Below are positions 6,589 through 61,550 of a stretch of 64,000 nt of DNA, one piece after another. The DNA is taken from NCBI RefSeq assembly GCF_028823685.1, contig NZ_JAPEHZ010000002.1:1-64000 (forward strand). Direction: 5' to 3'. The first letter of the stretch is position 1; every line of letters begins with the position of its first letter. Below the pieces are notes generated by a model. It was not told the origin of the DNA and searched no databases. It worked only from the letters and a program-made list of their open reading frames with translations. This stretch comes from Tenacibaculum sp. L6. Its GTDB lineage: Bacteria > Bacteroidota > Bacteroidia > Flavobacteriales > Flavobacteriaceae. Made by a program: the position numbers and the translations under genes.

Positions 6589-6655
6589 AAACTACAATTT
6601 TTATATTCTATTTTTTTATATTTTAGTTTTTTAGAAAACAAAATGAATTAATTGC

Positions 6656-8572
6656 ATGAAAACCAATAAACTCACTATTTTTTTAATAGTGTTAATGCTA
6701 TGTAGTACTATTTTTTCTCAAGAAGAACAAAATCTCTCTTCTCTTTTCATTTCAAAAGAACTAAAAGAAAATGCTAACGCTGTAGTACGATTAAACGAAT
6801 TAGTCATAACAGTAGAAGCCGTAGATCAACTTACAATTAAACAAAAAAGGATTGTTACTGTTCTTAATAAACTAGGTAAAGATCATATTGATGCCTATAA
6901 ACATTATAATAATGATACTAAAATTACTCGTTTATCTGCTATTATTTATGATGCTTTAGGAAATAAAGTGAAGAAATATTCTAAAAACGACTTTCAAGAT
7001 GTTAGTGCTATTGATGGAGGTACTCTATATTCAGACTCTAGAGTTAAATTTTTAGAACATACCCCAACATCATATCCTTATACTGTCGTTTTTGAATCAG
7101 AAGAAAAAAATTCTTCAACAGGTTTTATCCCCAAATGGTTTCCTATTGAAAATTATTATTTAGCTACAGAAAAAAGCGTTTATATTATAAACAATCCTCA
7201 AAACATTCCATTTAGAAAAAGAGAAAAAAACTTCAATGGTTTTTCTATTAAAAACTCTTCTACAGACACTAATTTAAATTACGTACTGACAAACCAACAA
7301 GCTATTAAACCTGAATATTATACTTTAAATTTTGAAGAGTTTGTCCCTAACTTAACTATCGCTTTAAATCAATTTTCTTTAAAGAACATAAAAGGTAAGG
7401 CTAGTAACTGGAAGGAGTTTGGAAAATGGCGCTATGAATATTTGAAAAACGGAAATGATATTGTTTCTGAATCAATTAAATCTGAAGTTAATAATATTAC
7501 TAAAGGAATAAAAGATCCAATACTTAAAGCTAAAGCTATTTATTCTTATATGCAAAACAGAACACGATACATTAGTGTTCAAGAAGGAATTGGTGGGTGG
7601 AAACCGATTCCCGCAAATAAAGTTCATGAGTTAGGGTATGGTGATTGTAAAGGGTTGACCAATTACACTAAAGCTCTTTTAGACGCCGTTGGTGTTGAGT
7701 CACACTACTCTGTTGTTTGGGCTGGAAGTGCAAAGAAAAATGTTTACAGCGATTTTTCTTCTATGCAGGGTAATCATGTTATTTTAAACATCCCTAATAA
7801 TGGAAATGATATTTGGTTAGAATGTACCAGTCAAACTATGCCTTTTGGTTTTTTGGGAGATTTTACTGACGATAGAGATGTGCTTGTAATAACCCCTGAA
7901 GGCGGGGTCATTAAAAGAACATCTGCTTATATTAATAAAGATAATTTACAGGTAACCAAAGCCTCTATTAAGTTATTACCTGAAGGAAGTATTTCAGCTC
8001 AACTTGAAAGAAAATCATACGGAACTCAATATGACAACAAATATCATATTGAAAATTATACTCAAAAAGAACTTAACAAATATTACAAAACTGATGTTTG
8101 GAGTTATAACAATAATTTAGAAATTGAAGATATTAAACATATAAACGACAAAGAAAAGGTTGAATTTACAGAGAGTCTTAATGTCAAAATAGAAAAGTTT
8201 GCTACAGTTAGAGATAGCAGTTATTTGTTTAAACTTAATGTATTTAATAGAGTAACTAGTGTTTCAAAAAAATACAGAAACAGACAGCGTTCCTTAGAAA
8301 TAGAAAGAGGGTTTACAGATAAAGATGAATTCACTTTTAGTATTCCTCAAGGTTACACTACAACCTACCTTCCAGAAAACATAAACATTACAAATAAATT
8401 TGGATCATACAGTATTCATTTTGAAAAAATAGATGATACTTCATTTAAATATATAAGAGAGTTTTCTCTTCTAAAAGGCATTTATCCTAAGGAAGATTAT
8501 GAAGTCTACAGAAAATTTAGAAAAACAGTTGCCAAATACGATAACCTAAGAACAGAATTAACCAAACTATAA
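6656..8572 (+). CDS. secreted DUF3857 / transglutaminase-like protein with intact Cys-His
   Basis: This 638-residue exported protein has a signal peptide (residues 1-21, cleavage near IFSQEE). An N-terminal DUF3857 domain (about 50-240) is followed by a transglutaminase-like core (about 290-420). The core keeps the nucleophile Cys331 in YGDCKGL and His374 in GNHVILNI; the third position is Glu389 in WLECTSQ rather than Asp. The C-terminal 200 residues are strand-rich. Such proteins in Bacteroidota act in the periplasm or at the surface on unknown substrates. It is the first of three related genes, with a 7-base gap to the next, and is the only one of the three with a potentially active centre. 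Confidence 0.85.
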   Translation: MKTNKLTIFLIVLMLCSTIFSQEEQNLSSLFISKELKENANAVVRLNELVITVEAVDQLTIKQKRIVTVLNKLGKDHIDAYKHYNNDTKITRLSAIIYDALGNKVKKYSKNDFQDVSAIDGGTLYSDSRVKFLEHTPTSYPYTVVFESEEKNSSTGFIPKWFPIENYYLATEKSVYIINNPQNIPFRKREKNFNGFSIKNSSTDTNLNYVLTNQQAIKPEYYTLNFEEFVPNLTIALNQFSLKNIKGKASNWKEFGKWRYEYLKNGNDIVSESIKSEVNNITKGIKDPILKAKAIYSYMQNRTRYISVQEGIGGWKPIPANKVHELGYGDCKGLTNYTKALLDAVGVESHYSVVWAGSAKKNVYSDFSSMQGNHVILNIPNNGNDIWLECTSQTMPFGFLGDFTDDRDVLVITPEGGVIKRTSAYINKDNLQVTKASIKLLPEGSISAQLERKSYGTQYDNKYHIENYTQKELNKYYKTDVWSYNNNLEIEDIKHINDKEKVEFTESLNVKIEKFATVRDSSYLFKLNVFNRVTSVSKKYRNRQRSLEIERGFTDKDEFTFSIPQGYTTTYLPENINITNKFGSYSIHFEKIDDTSFKYIREFSLLKGIYPKEDYEVYRKFRKTVAKYDNLRTELTKL

Positions 8573-8579
8573 AATTACT

Positions 8580-10601
8580 ATGAAAAAAGTATTACTCTTA
8601 TTTACCTTAATCTTTGTTTATAATTTAAACGCTCAAGAAATAAAATTTGGAAAAGTATCAAAAGAAGAATTAGAAGAAAGTTTACACCCTATAGATTCTA
8701 CTGCTGATGCTTCTTATCTTTTAAAAGATAGAAGAACTTATTTTAAGTATGATATGGAAGATGGATTCCAAGTTGTAACAGATTATCATGAACGAATCAA
8801 AATATACACAAAAGAAGGTCTTGATTATGCCACTAAAAAAATAACCTATTATACTCCTGATACTGGAGACGCTGAAAAAATCACCTCATTAAAAGCTTAT
8901 ACTTATAATTTAGAAAATGGTAAAATCACAGAGCGAAAGTTATTAAAGAAAGATATTTTTGAAGAGCATTTAAACAAATATAGGAGTCAAAAAAAAATCA
9001 CATTCCCTAATGTTAAAGAAGGAAGTATTATCGACATTAAATATACTTTATCTTCTCCTTATTGGGGTATTCAAACTGTTAACTTTCAATATGGAATACC
9101 TGTTAAGCAACTTAATACTCAAATAGAAATTCCAGAGTATTTTGTTTTCAGTCAAAGAGCTAAAGGTTTTTTTAATATTACCCCAAAACAAACCTCAAAA
9201 GAAGGCTCTATAGATTGGACTTCAAAAACGAGATATAAAACTGGAGTAGGCATGGGCTCTACTACTAAAACTGAATTTACAAATCATAGTAAAAAATTCA
9301 CTGTAAGAATTTATAATTTTGACCATGAAAATATTTCTCCTATAAAAGAAAACGAGCCTTTTTCTGGCAATGTTAATAATTACAGAGGTGGAGTAGAATT
9401 TGAACTTTCAGGTACTCGTTTTCCTAATTCAACATACAAAAATTATGCTACAAGCTGGGAAAGTGTATGTAAAACAATTTATAACTCTTCAGATTTTGGA
9501 AGCGAGCTAGAAAAAAGTAATTATTTCAAGGATGATTTAACTGATTTAATTAGTATCGCTAAAAACGATTCTGATAAAATAGCGCTAATATTCCAATTCG
9601 TTAAATCAAAAGTTAAATGGAATGAATACTATGGAAAATATACAGAGAAAGGAGTTAAAAAAGCCTATAAGGAAGGAGTAGGTAATGTTGCTGAGATTAA
9701 TTTAATGCTAACCTCAATGCTTCGATATGCAGGAGTTAAGGCAAATCCTGTTCTGACAAGCACCAAAAATAATGGAATTCCATTATTTCCAACTAGAGAA
9801 GGCTTTAATTATGTTATTTCCAAAGTTTACTTATCAAATGGTAAATATATTTTATTAGATGCTACTGAAGCTTTATCAGGCTTCAATATACTTCCTTTTA
9901 GAACCTTGAACTGGTACGGAACAGAAATTCTTGAAAATGGAAATTCTCAACAGGTTGAACTTATCCCCTCAACCCTTGCTGAAGAAAATAATATTTTACA
10001 TATAAAAATTGATGAATTAGGAGAAGTAAGCGGAATGTTACGGAAATCTTTAAAAGGGCATTCTGCTATGTTTTACCGCCAAAAGAATAATCTAAAAAAA
10101 GAAGAAGATCTAATAAACTCTATAGAAGATAAATATAATATAGAAATAGAAGATTTTAAAATTTTAAATAAAGAAAACCTATCAAAACCCATTGTTCAAA
10201 ACTTAAAATTTTCTGGCGAAGATTTTATTGAAGAGGTTAACGATAAATTATACTTATCTCCTTTACTTTTCTTAGTAACAAAAGAAAGTCCTTTTAAATC
10301 AAAAGAAAGAAGCTTTCCAATTGATTTTGGTATGCCTTGGCAAGATCAAAATTCTGTTTCAATAATAGTTCCAGAATCTTATTCTATAGAATCTTATCCT
10401 GATGAATTAGCTATCGGTTTACCTGATAACCTAGGAGTGTTTAAATACAAAGTGACAGTACAAAACAATAAAATCAAACTCTTTTCAGTAACCCAATTTA
10501 ATTCTAACATAATAGCTCCTCAACATTATTTAGCAGTAAAAGATCTTTATAATCAACTAATTAAAAAACAAACCGAAAAAATTGTATTAACAAAAATATA
10601 A
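8580..10601 (+). CDS. secreted DUF3857 / transglutaminase-like protein, catalytic Cys and His lost
   Basis: This 673-residue paralogue of the preceding protein has a signal peptide (residues 1-18, cleavage near LNAQE), the DUF3857 domain, a transglutaminase-like fold and a C-terminal strand-rich domain. In the core, GDCK is replaced by GNVAEIN (Val370 at the Cys position) and the His position is Tyr411 in FNYVISK, while Asp427 in LLDATE remains. It is therefore predicted not to be a transglutaminase or cysteine protease and may bind peptide or glycan instead (inference). Its stop shares one base with the start of the third paralogue. Confidence 0.82.
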   Translation: MKKVLLLFTLIFVYNLNAQEIKFGKVSKEELEESLHPIDSTADASYLLKDRRTYFKYDMEDGFQVVTDYHERIKIYTKEGLDYATKKITYYTPDTGDAEKITSLKAYTYNLENGKITERKLLKKDIFEEHLNKYRSQKKITFPNVKEGSIIDIKYTLSSPYWGIQTVNFQYGIPVKQLNTQIEIPEYFVFSQRAKGFFNITPKQTSKEGSIDWTSKTRYKTGVGMGSTTKTEFTNHSKKFTVRIYNFDHENISPIKENEPFSGNVNNYRGGVEFELSGTRFPNSTYKNYATSWESVCKTIYNSSDFGSELEKSNYFKDDLTDLISIAKNDSDKIALIFQFVKSKVKWNEYYGKYTEKGVKKAYKEGVGNVAEINLMLTSMLRYAGVKANPVLTSTKNNGIPLFPTREGFNYVISKVYLSNGKYILLDATEALSGFNILPFRTLNWYGTEILENGNSQQVELIPSTLAEENNILHIKIDELGEVSGMLRKSLKGHSAMFYRQKNNLKKEEDLINSIEDKYNIEIEDFKILNKENLSKPIVQNLKFSGEDFIEEVNDKLYLSPLLFLVTKESPFKSKERSFPIDFGMPWQDQNSVSIIVPESYSIESYPDELAIGLPDNLGVFKYKVTVQNNKIKLFSVTQFNSNIIAPQHYLAVKDLYNQLIKKQTEKIVLTKI

Positions 10602-12553
10602 TGAAAATCATATTATTTACTTTTACTTGCCTATTCTTCATTAATAGTTTTTCTCAACAGGAAAAATCCACAAGAATAGGGAATGTAGATATACAAGAGC
10701 TAAACATGAATCGGTATGAGAAAGACACAACCGCAAATGCTGTTGTTTTATACGAACATGCCAATTACTATATAGATGAAAGTAGAGACTACAAAAAAAC
10801 TACTGATTATTACTTTAAAATAAAAATATTAAAAAAAGAAGGCACTAATAAAGCCACTGTACAAATTCCTTTTTATGGAGGTGAAAAAGTACATTCAATA
10901 AAAGGAATAACTTATAACATCTCTGAAAACAATACGATTCTTAAAAATCATTTAATTGATACGCAAGTTTATACAAAAGATCTCTATGGGGAATGGAAGG
11001 AAGTTACATTTACCTTACCGAACATTAAAGAAGGAAGTGTAATCGAGTATACATACTCTGTTACTTCTCCTTACTCTAAAATTGATGATTGGCATTTTCA
11101 ATCTGACATTCCTAAAATTAAAAGTGATTTTACTGCAGCAATTTTAGGTAACTGGAAATATAACATAAGACTTGTAGGGTTTCTTGAATTGAAAAGAAGT
11201 GATGCTTCTATTAAAAAAGGTTGTGTTTATATTCCTGGACTTGGTGATGGGGCTTGTTTGATTTTAGATTATGGAATAGACGATATTCCTGCTTTTAAAG
11301 AAGAAGATTACATGTTAAGCAAAGAAAACTTTATTTCTAAACTTTGTTTTGATTTAGAATCTTTTCAAAACCCTAGAGGTGGAGTTGACAAGTATACTAA
11401 AACATGGAAAGATGCTGACAAAAGTTTAAAATATGATTTCTTAGACAATCAAACCTCAAAAAAAAGTTTCTTTAAAAACAACTTACCTCCTGCTCTTCTT
11501 TTAATTAACGATGATTTAGAAAGAGCAAAAAAAGTTTATTACTTTATTCAAGATTATTTTACTTGGAATGAAAAATACTGGCCATCAAAAAAAGTAAGAA
11601 TTAAAGACGCTTTTGAAAACAAAACAGGCAATGTTTTTGATGTTAATTTATCATTATACAACTCTTTAAAAGCAGCAAATATTGAAAGTTATCTTGTTTT
11701 AACCTCAACAAGAAACAAGGCTATTCCTACAAGACTACACCCTATAATTGATGACTTTAATTATTTACTAGTTAAAGCTACTATAAACAATAAAACATAC
11801 TTTCTAGATGCTACAAACAAACAATTGCCTTTTGGCCTAGTACAACATGAATCGTTAAATGGTGACGGCAGAAATATGGATTTTGCTAGTGGTAGCTATT
11901 GGGAAAACATAAAACTACAGAGAAAAAGCTTTAGAAATATTAAAGCCCAATTATCTTTTAATCAAGAAAATCGTTTAAGTGGAAATTTAATGATTTCGAG
12001 TGATGGTTTCTACGCTGTAAATGATAGAGAAAATTTAAACTCTACAGATATTGAAAGTTATATTGAAAATTTTGAATCTAAACACCCCAATCTTGAAGTA
12101 GAAAATTTAGAACATCAAAACTTAGACGAGAAAGAAAACACACTACATCAAATTTATGAAATCACAACTGATCATATAAATTTTGACACAAAACTTAGAA
12201 TTAATCCTTTTTTAATAGACAGGTATACTCAAAATCCTTTCAAACTTAATCAAAGAGATTATCCTGTTGATTATGGGTATCCTAGAAATCATACCTATAT
12301 GCTCTCTTTAAAATTACCCGATGGATATACTGTGAACAATTTACCCGAAAATAAAGCTTTATCTCTACCAAATAAGGGAGGAAGGTTTATTATTAATTTT
12401 AAAAACTTAAATAATGTAATTAGTGTATACTCTAGAGTTAACCTAAATAAAAGAGTATATAGTAGTGAAGAATATTATTACCTAAAAGAGTTTTACAATC
12501 AAATAATAAAAGCACAAGATGTTTTTATCGAAATTGAAAAAGCGAGTAATTAA
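10601..12553 (+). CDS. secreted DUF3857 / transglutaminase-like protein, catalytic Cys and His lost
   Basis: This 650-residue third paralogue has a signal peptide ending near NSFSQQ, the DUF3857 domain and a transglutaminase-like core in which the Cys motif reads GNVFDVN (Val345) and the His position is Tyr388 in FNYLLVK. Asp403 in FLDATN is kept. It follows the second paralogue with a 1-base ATG/TAA overlap, so the three are surely cotranscribed. The same substitutions in the second and third copies suggest that they shared an inactive ancestor before duplication. The stop codon lies inside the terminator stem. Confidence 0.82.
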   Translation: MKIILFTFTCLFFINSFSQQEKSTRIGNVDIQELNMNRYEKDTTANAVVLYEHANYYIDESRDYKKTTDYYFKIKILKKEGTNKATVQIPFYGGEKVHSIKGITYNISENNTILKNHLIDTQVYTKDLYGEWKEVTFTLPNIKEGSVIEYTYSVTSPYSKIDDWHFQSDIPKIKSDFTAAILGNWKYNIRLVGFLELKRSDASIKKGCVYIPGLGDGACLILDYGIDDIPAFKEEDYMLSKENFISKLCFDLESFQNPRGGVDKYTKTWKDADKSLKYDFLDNQTSKKSFFKNNLPPALLLINDDLERAKKVYYFIQDYFTWNEKYWPSKKVRIKDAFENKTGNVFDVNLSLYNSLKAANIESYLVLTSTRNKAIPTRLHPIIDDFNYLLVKATINNKTYFLDATNKQLPFGLVQHESLNGDGRNMDFASGSYWENIKLQRKSFRNIKAQLSFNQENRLSGNLMISSDGFYAVNDRENLNSTDIESYIENFESKHPNLEVENLEHQNLDEKENTLHQIYEITTDHINFDTKLRINPFLIDRYTQNPFKLNQRDYPVDYGYPRNHTYMLSLKLPDGYTVNNLPENKALSLPNKGGRFIINFKNLNNVISVYSRVNLNKRVYSSEEYYYLKEFYNQIIKAQDVFIEIEKASN

Positions 12554-12568
12554 TTACTCGCTTTTTTT
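12537..12568. terminator. bidirectional terminator overlapping the stop codon of the third DUF3857 gene
   Basis: AGCGAGTAATT and its complement form a perfect 22-base palindrome (12541-12562), flanked by A residues on the left and T residues on the right. It works for the plus-strand operon and for the minus-strand Lrp gene that ends at 12567. Confidence 0.85.
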
Positions 12569-22697: not shown

Positions 22698-23228
22698 TTA
22701 TTCTAAATACAACTCAATTAATCCTTCTGGTGTATTTACTTCAATTACTTGATTTTCTCTATCTACCTTTTTAATAAAATCATCTATCATAGGAATAAAA
22801 ATTTCTTTACCCTCTCTATCAATTTCAAATAAAGGTTGTGCAGAAGCATCGTTGATGCTCACTATAGTTCCAACTTCACCAAAAGCATCATCAACAACCG
22901 TAAAACCAATAACTTCATGGTAATAAAACTTATTTCCAGAAAGTTTTGGAAGCAAATCTAAAGGTAAATACACTTCTGAACGCAAAATAGCTTCTGCATC
23001 AGCTTCAGTATCTACATCTTCAAATTTTACTCTAAACATAGTTCCTTTACTCAATGAAGATTTTTCAATAAAAAAAGGAACCAGATTATTGCCTAAATCG
23101 ACAAAAACTGATTCCAAATTTTCGTAAAGATCGGGTTCATCAGTATCTAACTTAATAACTACCTCACCCTTAAAACTATGTTTTTTAACGATTTTGCCAA
23201 GATAAAAGCAATCTTCTTTTTGCATCAT
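22698..23228 (-). CDS. rimM: 16S rRNA processing / 30S maturation protein RimM
   Basis: This 176-residue protein aids late 30S assembly and binds ribosomal protein S19. The N-terminal RimM domain begins FYLGKIVKKHSFKGEVVIKLDTDEP, and the C-terminal PRC-barrel part includes YYHEVIGFTVVD and IFIPMIDDFIKKVD. Two adjacent ATG codons are possible starts. It lies 14 bases downstream of rpsP, the conserved rpsP-rimM arrangement. Confidence 0.95.
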   Translation of the reverse strand: MMQKEDCFYLGKIVKKHSFKGEVVIKLDTDEPDLYENLESVFVDLGNNLVPFFIEKSSLSKGTMFRVKFEDVDTEADAEAILRSEVYLPLDLLPKLSGNKFYYHEVIGFTVVDDAFGEVGTIVSINDASAQPLFEIDREGKEIFIPMIDDFIKKVDRENQVIEVNTPEGLIELYLE

Positions 23229-23242
23229 CGTAGTACACGTTT

Positions 23243-23746
23243 TTATTCTTCGCTATCAGCACCTGTTTCAGCAACAGCAGCATCCTCGCTATCAGTAGCA
23301 GGAACAGCAGCAGCAATACGTGCTTCGTTTACAGCTTTTTCAGCTTCTAAAGCTTTAGCTTTAGCCTCTTCTTTAGCTTTCGCTAAACCATCAGCTTTAC
23401 CAGCTACTTTTGATGCTTTTTCTTCTAACCAAGCAGTAAATTTAGCTTCTGCTTGCTCTTCAGTTAAAGCTCCTTTTTTTACTCCACCAGCTAAGTGATT
23501 CTTTAATAAAGCTCCTTTGTAAGATAAGATAGCTCTAGCAGTATCAGTTGGTTGAGCACCATTTTGCAACCACTTTACAGCTCCATCAACATCTAAATCG
23601 ATAGTTGCAGGGTTCGTGTTTGGATTGTAAGTTCCGATTTTTTCTAAGAAACGACCGTCTCTTTTAGCTCTAGAATCAGCAGCTACTACCCAATAAAATG
23701 GTTTTCCTTTTTTACCGTGTCTTTGTAATCTAATTTTTACAGGCAT
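23243..23746 (-). CDS. rpsP: 30S ribosomal protein S16 with alanine-rich C-terminal extension
   Basis: The first 80 residues are canonical bS16 ([20 protein letters not shown], then [20 protein letters not shown]). The remaining 85-90 residues are an Ala/Glu/Lys-rich helical tail ([17 protein letters not shown]) ending in an acidic region. Long tails of this kind are usual in Bacteroidota S16, which reaches about twice the length seen in E. coli. It is the first gene of an operon with rimM, behind a leader containing two hairpins. Confidence 0.96.
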
Positions 23747-23760
23747 AATGTTTAATTTTT

Positions 23761-23808
23761 AAGGTTCGCGACCTTGATTATTAATAAATCTTATCATCTC
23801 GTGATAAG
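23761..23808 (-). promoter_or_regulatory. structured 5' leader of rpsP (two hairpins)
   Basis: The minus-strand leader of rpsP holds two short hairpins: CTTATCA/TGATAAG around a 5-base loop (23790-23808) and AAGGT/ACCTT around a CG-rich loop (23761-23775), the latter 15-29 bases before the start codon. Such structure just upstream of a ribosomal-protein start suggests autoregulation. As I recall, a candidate r-protein leader for S16 has been described in Flavobacteria; a covariance-model match is needed to confirm that this is it. Confidence 0.45.
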
Positions 23809-37370: not shown

Positions 37371-39875
37371 ATGAAAAATCTGTTAACACTACTATTACTT
37401 CTAACAACCAGCTATTTAAGTGCTCAAATAACACTGCAAGGTAGAATTGTTGATGAATTTAACACTCCCTTACCTTTTGTTAATGTAGTTTTAAAAAACA
37501 CCACTTTTGGTACAACCACCGATGATGAAGGGAAATTCTATTTAAAAACTCCAAAAAATAGAGGTCTCTTAGAAATTTCATTTGTAGGTTTTCAAAAACA
37601 AGCAATCAAAGTCAATCAAAAAACAAAATTCTTAAATGTTGTTTTAAGAGAAGAAAGTAATCAATTAGACGAGGTTGTTATTGTTACAAAACCCAAAAAA
37701 CGCTTAAAAAAGAAAGAAAATCCTGCTTATAAAATTCTAAAAGAAGTATGGAAACGTAAAAGAAAAAACGGACTGGATTTAGTTGACCACTATCAATACA
37801 AAAAGAACACTTCTACAGAAATTGGCCTAAATAACCTAGACACGCTTTTTTTAAGAAAATTATTTAAAGACGAATACGAACAAGCTATTAACCAAGTTCA
37901 ATACGATAGTGACGGAATTAATTATTACATCCCTATTTATATAAATGAACAGGTTTCTAATATTTATGGCAACAATGTAACTAAAGCTGTAAGAGAAGAT
38001 ATTGAAGCTGAAAAATCAGAAGGATTGAACGCTCAAGGATTTGTTTTTGATAGAATGGCTAACACTTTTCAAAATATTGATGTGTTTCAAAATGACATTA
38101 CGTTATTACGCAAGTCATTTGTAAGCCCACTATCTACAGATGGTTTTTCTACTTACGACTATGTTTTATACGATAGTATTGTTGACAACAACAAAAAACT
38201 ATACAACATATATTTCTTTCCCAGAAGAGATGGTGATTTAGCATTTCAAGGGAATTTATGGATTGCAGACAAAAGCTTTTCTATAAAAAAGCTAAAAATG
38301 AAAGTTCATAAAAGTATCAATCTAAACTTTGTAAGAGGATTAACTTTTGAAAAAGAATTCGAAGTTAGAAACGATAGTATTTACATTCCTACTAAAAATG
38401 CTTACGAAGGAGATTTTACTTTTATTGATAAAAACGACAGTAATAAAGGTTTAACTATTAAGAAAAACACTACGTTTGAAAACTACATTTTAAACAAACC
38501 TCTTTCTGAAAATTTCTACGAAGAAAAAATTGAAAAAATAAGACCTAATCAGTATGAAAAAGAAGACACATACTGGGAGTCTGTTCAGAGTGATGAAAGC
38601 AAAAAAACGTATGAGTTAATTAAAAACGTTAAAAAGAAAAAGCAAATAAAAAACATCACGGTGCTTATTAATACGGTCTCTAGCGGATACGTAAACACCA
38701 ATTTAGGTTTTCAAGTTGGCCCTTTATGGACCATTTTTGCCAACAACCAAGTTGAAGGATTTAGAACCAAATTAGGTTTTAGAACTTTTGTAACCAAAGA
38801 TGATCGATTTCGTTTAACAGGTCATGTTGCCTACGGTTTTAAAGACAAAAAAGTAAAATATGCTGCCGAGGGTCGTTATTTATTGTCCTACAAGCCTAGA
38901 ATAGCAGTAGGTGCTGCTTACCAAAAAGATATTGAGCAATTAGGAAGCTCTTTATTAAACACTACCCAACTTTTAGGTAGAAGTTTTGGTACGGCTGCTG
39001 TATTTTCTAGAGGCGACAACTACTTTTTATCCAATGTAGAAAAGATTGCTACAAATTTTGATTATCAAATTCAACAAAATTTACACTTTGGAATTAATCT
39101 TTCTCATGCAAAAATTTCTTCTGCTGACGAACGATATTTCTCTATGGATTATATTGACGAAAACGGAGATATTCAATCAAAATTAACAGATGTAGCTTCT
39201 GATGTTTACCTTACTTATACTCCAGGTAGATTTGTGTATGGTTTAGGAGTAGAAAGACGTTTTGGTAATAATCTTTTCCCTACCTTGGTTTTAAACTACC
39301 GTAAAGGATACAAAGACGTTTTCAACGGCACACATAACTATGACAAAATCCAGTTCAAATACAACCAACCTATTTTACTAAGTAAGTTTGGTGTTTTAGA
39401 TGCTACTTTTGAAGCTGGAAAAACTTTCGGAAATGTACCAATCGCTTTATTAAGTCCGGTACCTGCTAACCAATCTTTTTCTTTAGTGAAAGATACTTTT
39501 ACCTTACTAAATTATTACGATTTTGTTACTGATGAATATTTAGCAGGACATTTTGAGCATCACTTTAATGGTTATATTTTAAATAGAATTCCATTATTGA
39601 AAAAACTAAAACTACGAAGTTTAGTAACTTTTAGAGCCGCTTACGGAACAATTTCAGCAGAAAACAGAGCAATGAACGCTGGAAATGTTAATTACAATGC
39701 TCCAAATAAAGTGTACTATGAATATGGTTTTGGACTAGAAAATATAGGATACGGAAACTTACGTTTTCTTAGAGTTGATGCTATTTGGAGAAGTAATTAC
39801 ACACCTCCAGTAGGTTCTACAGTTGCTCCAACCCCGAAGTTCGCTATTCGTATAGGAATTAAACCTGGCTTATAA
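37371..39875 (+). CDS. DUF5686 outer-membrane protein with carboxypeptidase-regulatory-like domain
   Basis: This 834-residue protein has a signal peptide (MKNLLTLLLLLTTSYLSAQ). A carboxypeptidase D regulatory-like domain (about 20-110) includes LQGRIVDEFNTPLPFVNVVL and the Gly-Phe motif SFVGFQKQ, as in TonB-dependent receptors. The DUF5686 body contains KEVWKRKRKNGLDLVDHYQY. The C-terminal half is strand-rich and ends KFAIRIGIKPGL, suggesting an outer-membrane barrel. The function of this Bacteroidota family is unknown. A link with surface structures is inferred. Confidence 0.85.
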   Translation: MKNLLTLLLLLTTSYLSAQITLQGRIVDEFNTPLPFVNVVLKNTTFGTTTDDEGKFYLKTPKNRGLLEISFVGFQKQAIKVNQKTKFLNVVLREESNQLDEVVIVTKPKKRLKKKENPAYKILKEVWKRKRKNGLDLVDHYQYKKNTSTEIGLNNLDTLFLRKLFKDEYEQAINQVQYDSDGINYYIPIYINEQVSNIYGNNVTKAVREDIEAEKSEGLNAQGFVFDRMANTFQNIDVFQNDITLLRKSFVSPLSTDGFSTYDYVLYDSIVDNNKKLYNIYFFPRRDGDLAFQGNLWIADKSFSIKKLKMKVHKSINLNFVRGLTFEKEFEVRNDSIYIPTKNAYEGDFTFIDKNDSNKGLTIKKNTTFENYILNKPLSENFYEEKIEKIRPNQYEKEDTYWESVQSDESKKTYELIKNVKKKKQIKNITVLINTVSSGYVNTNLGFQVGPLWTIFANNQVEGFRTKLGFRTFVTKDDRFRLTGHVAYGFKDKKVKYAAEGRYLLSYKPRIAVGAAYQKDIEQLGSSLLNTTQLLGRSFGTAAVFSRGDNYFLSNVEKIATNFDYQIQQNLHFGINLSHAKISSADERYFSMDYIDENGDIQSKLTDVASDVYLTYTPGRFVYGLGVERRFGNNLFPTLVLNYRKGYKDVFNGTHNYDKIQFKYNQPILLSKFGVLDATFEAGKTFGNVPIALLSPVPANQSFSLVKDTFTLLNYYDFVTDEYLAGHFEHHFNGYILNRIPLLKKLKLRSLVTFRAAYGTISAENRAMNAGNVNYNAPNKVYYEYGFGLENIGYGNLRFLRVDAIWRSNYTPPVGSTVAPTPKFAIRIGIKPGL

Positions 39876-39977
39876 TCATACAATTAACCATAAAATAAAC
39901 CAGTTTTTTCTTAAAAAAAAGTAATAAATCGTTACTTTTGCAAACCGATTTTAGAAACGAAGAAAAGTTAAGAATAT

Positions 39978-40505
39978 ATGACCGCAAAAGAGAGAAAAAC
40001 AGTAGATGTTTTAATTGAAATTCCAAAAGGAAGTAGAAATAAGTACGAATACGATTTTGATTTAGGAAAAATTCGTTTTGATAGAATGTTATTCTCATCA
40101 ATGATGTATCCTGGTGATTATGGATTCATTCCTCAAACTTTAGCATTAGATGGAGATCCATTAGACGTATTAGTTTTAGGAGCAGAACCAACTTTTCCTA
40201 TGTGTGTTATGGAAGTAAAGCCAATTGGTGTTTTCCATATGGCTGATGAAAAAGGTCCAGATGAAAAAATCGTTTGTGTACCAGTATCTGACCCAATCTG
40301 GAACAAATACAATGATTTATCTGACTTAAACCCACACCGTCAACAAGAAATCACTCACTTCTTCCAAGTTTACAAAGACTTAGAAAAAAAGAAAGTAGAT
40401 ATCGGAGATTGGGGTAACGCAGATGAAGCTTACGAAATCTTAGATAAATGTTTAGAGCGTTATGAAAATAGCGAGCACAAAACAAATGGAGATTTTACTA
40501 TTTAA
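39978..40505 (+). CDS. ppa: inorganic pyrophosphatase (soluble, family I)
   Basis: This 175-residue cytoplasmic enzyme hydrolyses diphosphate to phosphate. The family I signature is present: LIEIPKGSRNKYEYD at the start, YPGDYGFIPQTLALDGDPLDVLVLG with the metal-binding aspartates, and the late KKVDIGDWGNADEA. The length matches bacterial enzymes. It is followed by a strong terminator and then by the membrane pyrophosphatase gene. Confidence 0.96.
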   Translation: MTAKERKTVDVLIEIPKGSRNKYEYDFDLGKIRFDRMLFSSMMYPGDYGFIPQTLALDGDPLDVLVLGAEPTFPMCVMEVKPIGVFHMADEKGPDEKIVCVPVSDPIWNKYNDLSDLNPHRQQEITHFFQVYKDLEKKKVDIGDWGNADEAYEILDKCLERYENSEHKTNGDFTI

Positions 40506-57950: not shown

Positions 57951-59492
57951 TTACAACGGAATATTCCCATGTTTTCTATTAGGTCGTTCTACCTTTTTAC
58001 CTTCTAACATAGCAAAGGCTTTAATCAGTTTTCTACGGGTGTTTTGTGGCAAAATAACCTCATCTACAAATCCGCGTTCTGCTGCTCGGTACGGATTCGC
58101 AAATTTATCAGCATACTCCGCTTCTTTCTCCGCTAGTTTCGCTTCGTGATCGTCTGCTTCGGCAATTTCCTTTTTAAAGATAATTTCACTCGCTCCTTTT
58201 GCTCCCATTACCGCAATTTCTGCACTAGGCCATGCAAAATTCATATCGGCTCCAATGTGTTTTGAATTCATTACGTCATAGGCTCCACCATAAGCTTTAC
58301 GGGTAATTACACTTACTCTTGGCACGGTAGCTTCACTCAACGCATATAATAGTTTTGCTCCATTGGTAATAATAGCGTTCCATTCTTGGTCAGTTCCTGG
58401 TAAAAATCCTGGTACATCTACCAACACTAATAACGGAATATTAAAGCAATCACAAAAACGAGTGAATCGTGCTGCTTTTTTAGAACTGTTTACATCCAAA
58501 CATCCGGCTAAACTCATCGGTTGGTTGGCAACAATCCCAACACTTCTTCCTCCTAAACGCGCAAACCCAACCACGATATTATCAGCATAATCTTTATGGA
58601 TTTCAAAAAACGAATCAGCATCAGCAATACCATCAATTACTGCACGCATATCGTACGGCTTGTTGGCATTATCTGGAACTATATTGGCTAATTCTTCTCT
58701 AATTTCATCGCCTAATTCAAATGGTAACTTTGCTGTAGTTTCTTGATTGTTCTGTGGCATATAGCTCAACAATGTTTTAATATCTTCCAAACATTGTACA
58801 TCGTTCGCTGCCGTTAAATGCGTAACTCCCGATTTGGTTGCATGCGTACTCGCTCCTCCTAATTCTTCTGAAGTTACTTCTTCATTGGTTACTGTTTTTA
58901 CTACGTTAGGTCCCGTAACAAACATATAACTTGAATTTTCTACCATAACGGTAAAATCGGTCATCGCTGGTGAATATACTGCTCCACCTGCACAAGGTCC
59001 CATAATTGCTGAGATTTGTGGAATTACTCCTGATGCTTGTACATTTCTGTAAAAAATATCGGCATAACCACCTAACGAACGTACTCCTTCTTGAATACGC
59101 GCTCCACCAGAATCGTTCAATCCGATTAATGGCGCTCCTACTTTTACCGCTAAATCCATAATCTTACAGATTTTTTCGGCGTGTGTTTCCGATAACGAAC
59201 CTCCAAACACCGTAAAGTCTTGTGCAAACACATATACTAAACGTCCGTTTACAGTTCCGTATCCTGTTACCACTCCGTCACCATAAAACTTCTGATTTTC
59301 CATTCCAAAATCGGTCGTTCTATGGGTTACTAAAATGCCGACTTCTTCAAAAGAACCTTCATCTAAGAAATAATCGATTCGCTCACGAGCGGTTAATTTT
59401 CCTTTTTGATGATGACGGTCGGTACGTTGTTGTCCGCCTCCTAACTTTGCTTCGGTAAGTTTATGTTGTAATTCTTCTATTTTAGATTTCAT
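57951..59492 (-). CDS. acyl-CoA carboxylase carboxyltransferase (beta) subunit
   Basis: This 513-residue protein transfers CO2 from carboxybiotin to propionyl-CoA, acetyl-CoA or methylcrotonyl-CoA. Typical blocks are [56 protein letters not shown] and [20 protein letters not shown]. The substrate is not settled; propionyl-CoA is usual for such three-gene sets. It is the last gene of an operon with the biotin carrier and biotin carboxylase, but a repeat element sits between it and the biotin carboxylase gene. Confidence 0.92.
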
Positions 59493-59625: not shown

Positions 59626-61063
59626 TTAACAAGTTTTTAAAATACGTTGCTCTTTTAAATACTGCTGTAAGGCTACTTGTGCAGCAATCTTTGCTTCTTT
59701 TTCGTATCCTGCTTTTAACAACTCAGGCGTATAATATTTCTTTACAAAATGAGTATCGAAATTCCCTGAGGTGAAAGCTTCGTGTTCGCATACGAACTTT
59801 CCGAACGGCAACGTAGTTTCTATTCCTTTTACCTTATAATTACTAATCGCACTGTTTCATTAACTCAATAGCTTCTTCGCGTGTATTTCCGTAGGTAATC
59901 AATTTAGAAATCATCGGGTCGTAATAAATAGGAATTTCCATTCCTTCTTCAAAACCATCATCTACTCGAATATTTTCTCCTTTCGGATGTTGGTAGGTTT
60001 CCAACACTCCAATACTCGGTGCAAAATTGTCTAAAGGATCTTCGGCATATACACGTAACTCTAGCGCGTGTCCGTTAATTTGTAAATCGTCTTGGGTGAA
60101 TGATAGCTCCTCTCCTCTTGCTATTTTTATTTGTTGCTCTACTAAGTCTACTCCCGTAATGAGTTCAGTAACTGGATGCTCTACTTGTAAACGTGTATTC
60201 ATTTCTAGGAAGTAGAAGTTTTTGTTTTCGTCTAGTAAGAACTCCACTGTTCCAGCTCCTAAATAATCACAAGCTTTCGCAACTCTTACAGCTGCAGCCC
60301 CCATGGCTTCTCTAATTTCTGGAGTCAACACACTCGATGGTGCTTCTTCTACTACTTTTTGGTGGCGACGTTGTACCGAACATTCTCGTTCAAATAAGTG
60401 TACTACGTTTCCATGAGCATCTGCCAATACTTGGATTTCGATATGACGTGGTGACCCTACATATTTTTCTATAAATACAGAACCATCTCCAAAAGCTGAT
60501 TCTGCCTCTGAAATTGCACGCTGCATTTGTTCTTTAATATCGGCTTCTTTTTCAACAACACGCATTCCTTTTCCTCCGCCTCCTGCTGAGGCTTTGATTA
60601 AAATCGGATATCCTATTTCATTCGCTACTTTCGAAGCATATTCTACATCGGTTACCGCTTCGTCAATACCTGGAACCATCGGAATATCATAGGCTTTTAC
60701 TGCATCTTTTGCAGCCAATTTACTTCCCATAACTTCAATAGCATGAGTTTTCGGCCCTATAAATACAATTCCTGATTTTGCTACGGCTTCTCCAAAGGCT
60801 GCGTTTTCACTTAAAAATCCGTATCCTGGGTGAATTCCATCTACATCTAACTCTTTCGCTACTTCAATAATTTTATCGCCTAATAAATACGATTGGTTAG
60901 AAGGTGCAGGACCAATACATACTGCTTCGTCTGCAAAAGTTACGTGTGGTGAGTTCCTATCTGCTTCTGAAAAAACCGCTACCGTTTTAATTCCCATCTT
61001 TTTTGCTGTACGCATTACACGCAAGGCAATTTCTCCTCTATTTGCTACTAATATCTTTTTCAT
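59626..61063 (-). pseudogene. acyl-CoA carboxylase biotin carboxylase subunit, frameshifted
   Basis: The main frame (59843-61063) codes for 406 residues: RGEIALRVMRTAKKMGIKTV, the ATP-grasp KASAGGGGKGMRVVEK, and the EMNTRLQVEHPVTE catalytic region. It ends abruptly as ELMKQ-Cys-Asp-stop. Dropping one base at 59851 (A on the plus strand, T in the coding strand) lets it continue A-I-S-N-Y-K-V and then TLPFGKFVCEHEAFTSGNFD (see 59626-59811), giving a normal 478-residue protein. The last 70 residues of the biotin-carboxylase C-terminal domain are therefore lost. No homopolymer surrounds the site. The cause could be a real mutation, programmed frameshifting or an assembly error. Confidence 0.85.
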
Positions 61064-61064
61064 C

Positions 61065-61550
61065 TTATTCCATTTCTATTAAAACCGTATTCTTTTCTAC
61101 CTTGTCTCCTGCTTGAATCGCTATCGATTTTACGACTCCGTCTCTTGGTGCTTGTAAGGTATTTTCCATTTTCATGGCTTCTAATACCAAAATTCCGTCA
61201 CCTTCTTTTACTTCTTGACCAATTTCAACATCAACAGAAACAATTAACCCAGGCATTGGTGCCTTGATATCGTTTTCTTTTTTCTCTGCAGCTACTTCTA
61301 ACCCTAACTCATCAATTAACATATCTAATTCATCAGCAATATTTACCTCGTAAGTATTTCCGTTGATTTGAATGGTGTATGTTTTTTTGTTGAAATTTGT
61401 TTGGAGTATGGTAGCTTGATACGATTGGTTACCATCAAGTACATGGTAGTTATTTTTTGATTTTTCTACTATATCTAACGCCTCTATTTGCGCTTCAGTA
61501 AAATCAAAATCATGCGTTTTATTAACTCTAGTTTTAAAAGATTTACTCAT
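61065..61550 (-). CDS. biotin carboxyl carrier subunit of acyl-CoA carboxylase
   Basis: This 161-residue protein has a C-terminal biotinyl domain with Lys127 in EAMKMENTLQAP, preceded by KAPMPGLIVSVDVEIGQEV. The N-terminal half is a variable region with strands (YTIQINGNTYEVNIADE). Biotin ligase modifies Lys127, which shuttles carboxyl groups from the biotin carboxylase to the carboxyltransferase. It is the first gene of the operon and lies 1 base before the biotin carboxylase ATG. Confidence 0.93.
   Translation of the reverse strand: MSKSFKTRVNKTHDFDFTEAQIEALDIVEKSKNNYHVLDGNQSYQATILQTNFNKKTYTIQINGNTYEVNIADELDMLIDELGLEVAAEKKENDIKAPMPGLIVSVDVEIGQEVKEGDGILVLEAMKMENTLQAPRDGVVKSIAIQAGDKVEKNTVLIEME

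Follow-up and report, generated by a model that had tools for sequence, protein, structure and literature searches.

An extra base splitting a biotin carboxylase gene in a draft Flavobacteriaceae genome is probably an assembly error

When a biotin carboxylase gene is broken by a single extra base and its operon partners remain open, three kinds of answer present themselves: the enzyme has been lost, the enzyme is made in spite of the break, or the break does not exist in the organism. The gene in question lies on the minus strand in the last 7 kb of the window, the term used here for the whole stretch of 64,000 nucleotides that was analyzed, which by its sequence appears to belong to a Tenacibaculum-like member of the Flavobacteriaceae. 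A preliminary description of this locus placed the extra base at position 59851 and followed the other frame to 59626; both coordinates are right. Its biological readings of the break are weighed below.

The upstream part of the split gene (59843..61063, minus strand) starts at 61063 and runs for 406 codons to a TAG at 59845-59843, with the frame shift at 59851. The position of the extra base was taken from alignment to the intact gene of the closest relative, G017. On the minus strand, the letters are CAG (59854-59852), the extra T (59851), and then GCG ATT AGT AAT TAT in the other frame, while the original frame reads CAG TGC GAT TAG. The C-terminal remainder (59626..59850, minus strand) is 74 codons plus a stop in the shifted frame, in which 59850-59626 reads AISNYKVKGIETTLPFGKF...ILKTC*, and 73 of its 74 residues are as in G017. 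Direct reading of the sequence bears out the earlier statement that 59851 lies in no homopolymer and in no classic slippery heptamer (X-XXY-YYZ). The codon beside the extra base is CAG in the window and CAA in the four nearest relatives (G017, G022, G027, and G028), and CAG is the minor glutamine codon, used 33 times in 254 across 13 window ORFs; the local difference may therefore be a two-base change rather than a pure insertion. This hints at one compound change, which is compatible either with a real complex mutation or with a consensus error. An effect of a contig end was considered and rejected, as the nearest end is 18.9 kb from 59851.

The identity of the gene, already given as biotin carboxylase, is confirmed by matches to PF00289, PF02786, and PF02785. 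All three domains of the enzyme (N-terminal, ATP-grasp, and C-terminal) are present, the last one spanning the two frames: positions 1-70 of the 108 positions of Pfam Biotin_carb_C (PF02785) precede the break, and positions 71-107 follow it. The 406-aa product, which passes only the subfamily PRK08591 cut-off among the 25 of 42 NCBIfam matches listed, is therefore without 38 of the 108 positions of the C-terminal domain, and without the tail. The isolated downstream piece scores 28.9 bits against Biotin_carb_C, under the cut-off of 32.4. The most improbable reading of the locus is that of a split functional enzyme, in which the truncated protein works alone or is joined by a C-terminal piece re-initiated at a TTG at 59811. 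A 61-aa ORF with this TTG start does span 59626-59811; however, the break interrupts a conserved domain, the 13 residues from the break up to the TTG would be lost, and the gene is split in none of the relatives examined.

The operon consists of genes for a biotin carrier, the biotin carboxylase, and a carboxyltransferase, and the two partner genes are intact, as had been reported. The biotin carboxyl carrier protein (61065..61550, minus strand; 161 aa) is encoded by the first gene of the operon, which is open and matches PF00364 (Biotin_lipoyl, E 2.3e-19). The carboxyltransferase subunit (57951..59492, minus strand; 513 aa) is also open and is MmdA/PCCB-like (PF01039, E 5.4e-206), its best NCBIfam match being MmdA, below the cut-off of that family. 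A biotin carboxylase encoded together with both a biotin carrier and a carboxyltransferase is the arrangement by which a subunit of an acyl-CoA carboxylase is recognized. Between the biotin carboxylase and carboxyltransferase genes lies a Flavo-1 RNA element (RF01705; 59518..59618, minus strand; 50.8 bits, gathering threshold 42). Transcriptome data for Flavobacterium psychrophilum gave no real clue to the function of Flavo-1, according to the accessible part of PMC9723704. Elsewhere in the window, an S16-Flavobacteria ribosomal protein leader (RF03138) is found at 23751-23785 (minus strand), just upstream of the ORF at 23243-23746.

The best solved-structure matches of the intact G017 protein (478 aa) are alpha subunits of propionyl-CoA carboxylase, namely 6ybp (E 4.4e-157, aligned over residues 2-449 of the 478) and the human 7ybu. 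The genome of the window also has genes for methylmalonyl-CoA epimerase (over the family cut-off) and methylmalonyl-CoA mutase. The closest structures and the epimerase and mutase genes together suggest that the likely activity of the enzyme is that of a propionyl-CoA carboxylase. The living organism probably has an unbroken gene for an ordinary biotin carboxylase of about 478 aa, which would work with the carrier encoded upstream and the carboxyltransferase encoded downstream as an acyl-CoA carboxylase, probably for propionyl-CoA, and would feed the epimerase and the mutase. A second intact copy of the gene elsewhere in the genome was considered and rejected: the only other full-length match to the biotin carboxylase is 54% identical and lies on a different contig. 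By its length and identity, this other gene is probably accC.

The break is present in this assembly and was not seen in any of the relatives examined. Orthologs, defined by at least 65% identity, were sought in 59 genomes (that of the window and 58 others). All 18 other genomes with an ortholog have it in one open frame, which measures 482-512 codons; in the genome of the window the frame has 410. The gene was read through the break site in eight of nine relatives, the ninth, G003, being known from its ortholog-search frame alone (488), and in G017 a single 478-aa frame passes through the site. Among loci from named genomes, 80 of 80 further ones (the best 80 of at least 592 candidates) keep one frame, to 477-500 residues, and the best match among these 80 is from Tenacibaculum sp. 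SG-28 (86%). A search for near matches found no close relative of the gene on a plasmid record. The operon is patchy in the genus, as an ortholog at 77% identity or more occurs in eight of 35 genomes of the same genus, some of which are incomplete. The operon is thus dispensable in the genus, and a real loss would be tolerated.

This distribution bears directly on programmed or tolerated ribosomal frameshifting, in which a +1 slip before the TAG would give the full-length enzyme. The other frame does preserve the C-terminal part, and a ribosome slipping at the stop would yield a product of normal length. Yet none of the 18 other genomes with an ortholog shows the transition, nor does any of the 80 loci (the best 80 of at least 592), and the site has no slippery heptamer; to our knowledge, the stop context CAG TGC GAT TAG matches no +1 signal. 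In the accessible part of a study of frame transitions in prokaryotes (PMC3711429), the calling of a programmed frameshift needs a conserved site and a cluster of at least five genes, and the present transition has neither. With the transition in no relative examined and no slip signal seen, programmed frameshifting was rejected as an explanation and is considered very improbable.

If the gene had been broken for long, amino-acid changes would be expected to accumulate, and few are seen. In comparison with G017, there are 55 synonymous and one non-synonymous codon differences in the 403 codons before the break, and nine synonymous and one non-synonymous in the 75 codons after it (stop included). 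In comparison with G027, the corresponding numbers are 78 and three before the break and four and three after it. The non-synonymous share after and before the break is 1/10 versus 1/56 with G017, a difference that is not significant (Fisher p 0.28, small numbers), and 3/7 versus 3/81 with G027, where numbers are likewise small. The nominally higher share after the break would be compatible with a slight relaxation of constraint, given these small numbers. Because amino-acid changes are so few, the break is either very young or false, and an old pseudogene was rejected for the same reason.

The choice between a young break and a false one turns on the behavior of the rest of the assembly. When the G017 ORFs are compared with the window, the biotin carboxylase is the only gene found in two pieces in different frames. 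The reverse comparison also finds the window ORFs 23178-23498 (plus strand) and 39859-40101 (minus strand) in two pieces; both overlap longer ORFs and are taken as chance frames. A further difference between the two genomes is a 6-kb stretch of the window (6590-12560, plus strand) that is absent from the syntenic place in G017 and holds three consecutive ORFs of 638, 673, and 650 aa; each of these has a DUF3857 domain, and a transglutaminase-like core is present in two of them. Since the biotin carboxylase was the sole two-piece gene in the window, the comparison was extended to 356 kb of the 2.55-Mb assembly, a non-random sample that took in the whole contig of the window and eight further contigs, entire or in part (the tiny contigs C100 and C50 being left out), each set against the matching stretch of G017.

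For 287 G017 ORFs an ortholog is present in these 356 kb, and in the assembly of the window an indel splits 10 of them, among which is the biotin carboxylase. In the opposite direction, 4 of 287 were flagged; their coordinates show three of them to be breaks already counted, viewed from the other genome, and the fourth to be a break in G017. The excess of split genes, 10 of 287 (one of unclear side) versus 1 of 287 in G017, gives a Fisher p of 0.011 for 10 versus 1. The aligned coding sequence that holds the ten splits amounts to 289,257 bases, which gives one split per 29 kb; at this rate, about two such breaks would be expected in a 64-kb window. Ten further short matches were kept out of the count: four lie at contig or stretch ends (C171, C196, C170, and C180), in two the difference is confined to the gene start, and the remaining four (C5:45069-45986, C5:48504-48860, C5:86540-87388, and C5:41751-42587) are uninspected. 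The one split gene of G017 itself (L150, C5:185749-186181) shows an 11-base deletion together with another difference in length, and corresponds to an open 155-aa frame in the genome of the window. Indel-split genes were observed in the stretches L128, L131, L132, L143, L160, L163, and L164.

The nine other split genes are diverse in kind. Two are the only copies found in the assembly, namely yidC (+2; 97 codons versus 623 in G017) and dnaG (-59; 440 codons versus 669). The others are clpP (+4), a photolyase-related gene (+2), a TPM-domain gene (+2), a methyltransferase-like gene (+22; 261 codons versus 256, with a changed tail), a winged-helix gene (-16; 146 codons versus 151), an ankyrin-like gene (+5), and an algH/yqgE-family gene (+14); the names of the methyltransferase-like, ankyrin-like, and algH/yqgE-family genes come from matches below the curated cut-off. 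For the TPM-domain and methyltransferase-like genes, G022, G027, and G028 agree with G017, whereas none of these three genomes has a close counterpart of the winged-helix gene, and the side on which that gene is broken is unclear. The frame is shorter than in G017 in 8 of the 10 split genes, the methyltransferase-like gene with its changed tail being the ninth. Half of the ten indels are short tandem duplications (of 2, 4, 5, 14, and 22 bases), and a deletion of 16 bases is flanked by direct repeats. Such duplications, together with a deletion between direct repeats, would be the footprint of wrongly merged overlaps. Outside the ten, and below the threshold for counting, a 5-base tandem duplication near the end of the gene for the mutase small subunit displaces its last codons. 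Open frame 1137 had suggested that the mutase subunits are fused; this was rejected, as the stop is present.

Bacteria cannot live without YidC and DnaG, the products of yidC and dnaG, and a living cell cannot carry an indispensable gene in broken form. Both genes are broken here, and genes are split at one per 29 kb, so the assembly very probably contains false indels. It is improbable in the extreme that the indels are instead real and that the lineage is an unusual indel mutator, prone to short tandem duplications, whose ribosomes or RNA polymerase slip so frequently that full-length proteins are still made from the broken genes for yidC, dnaG, clpP, and the carboxylase and the cells survive.

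An excess of indels in the assembly does not by itself speak for every base, and a genuine, very recent frameshift may be set against it, one that killed the biotin carboxylase in this strain and left a dead carboxylase with undecayed partners in a dispensable operon. Several observations fit such a knock-out: the operon is patchy enough in the genus for its loss to be tolerable; the gene has one clean break, and was alone in giving two pieces in different frames when the window was set against the ORFs of G017; the segment lost is part of a conserved domain; and the non-synonymous share is nominally higher after the break, if not significantly so with G017. The base at 59851 is also far from the contig ends, and it is a single base with a neighboring substitution and no tandem duplication, unlike half of the other indels, which is a caveat to any reading as an error. 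Against a knock-out stand the nine further split genes of 287 in the same assembly, some of them needed for life. The partner genes, the epimerase gene, and the gene for the mutase large subunit are still open, and constraint is not clearly relaxed, although a very recent break would look alike. On balance, a real knock-out is unlikely, with a small but appreciable chance of being correct.

There is high confidence, by comparison, that the extra base at 59851 is an assembly or consensus error in a fragmented draft genome, a judgment drawn from the general behavior of the assembly. The error is the likeliest source of the break because the same assembly has nine further split genes, including yidC and dnaG, each in the only copy found, and we infer that base 59851 belongs to the same class of error as the other indels. 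The accessible part of PMC11017572 describes many frameshift pseudogenes in public bacterial genomes as assembly errors, caused by assembler, platform, and coverage. Likewise, in the part of PMC3711429 available, homology-validated frame transitions that are singletons are expected to stem from sequencing errors and not from real indels, and the break in the biotin carboxylase is a singleton of the kind described there. The preliminary description had offered a lost carboxylase activity, a working truncated enzyme, or ribosomal slippage. These readings are not supported, given a frameshift that is absent from 18 genomes with an ortholog and from 80 loci (the best 80 of at least 592), in an assembly with nine further split genes of 287 that include yidC and dnaG. 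The assembly error that it named as fatal to its own finding is now the likeliest explanation.

The extra base at 59851 is thus most likely not a real feature, and the finding is of little interest as biology and mainly a caution. A naive annotation would call the propionyl-CoA-type carboxylase dead and deduce a missing pathway step, though the evidence favors an error of the draft assembly. The split rate of 10 in 287 suggests that a single frameshift in this assembly is no basis for inferring the loss of a gene, and the assembly calls for caution throughout.

Three known systems offer comparisons. The split gene resembles prfB and other programmed frameshift genes in retaining its two halves in two frames, but differs from them in that the transition is not conserved and no signal is seen. 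The biotin carboxylase part of propionyl-CoA carboxylase alpha subunits (PDB 6ybp and 7ybu) gives the best structure matches of the intact G017 protein, and the carboxyltransferase partner is MmdA/PCCB-like; however, the biotin carrier is here a separate protein encoded upstream rather than fused, and the window copy is cut at 406 aa. False frameshifts in draft assemblies, as treated in the accessible part of PMC11017572, differ in that the cause proposed for base 59851 is drawn from the assembly and not from reads. They resemble the present case in that the break occurs in one assembly only, is accompanied by little amino-acid change, and is found together with further broken genes.
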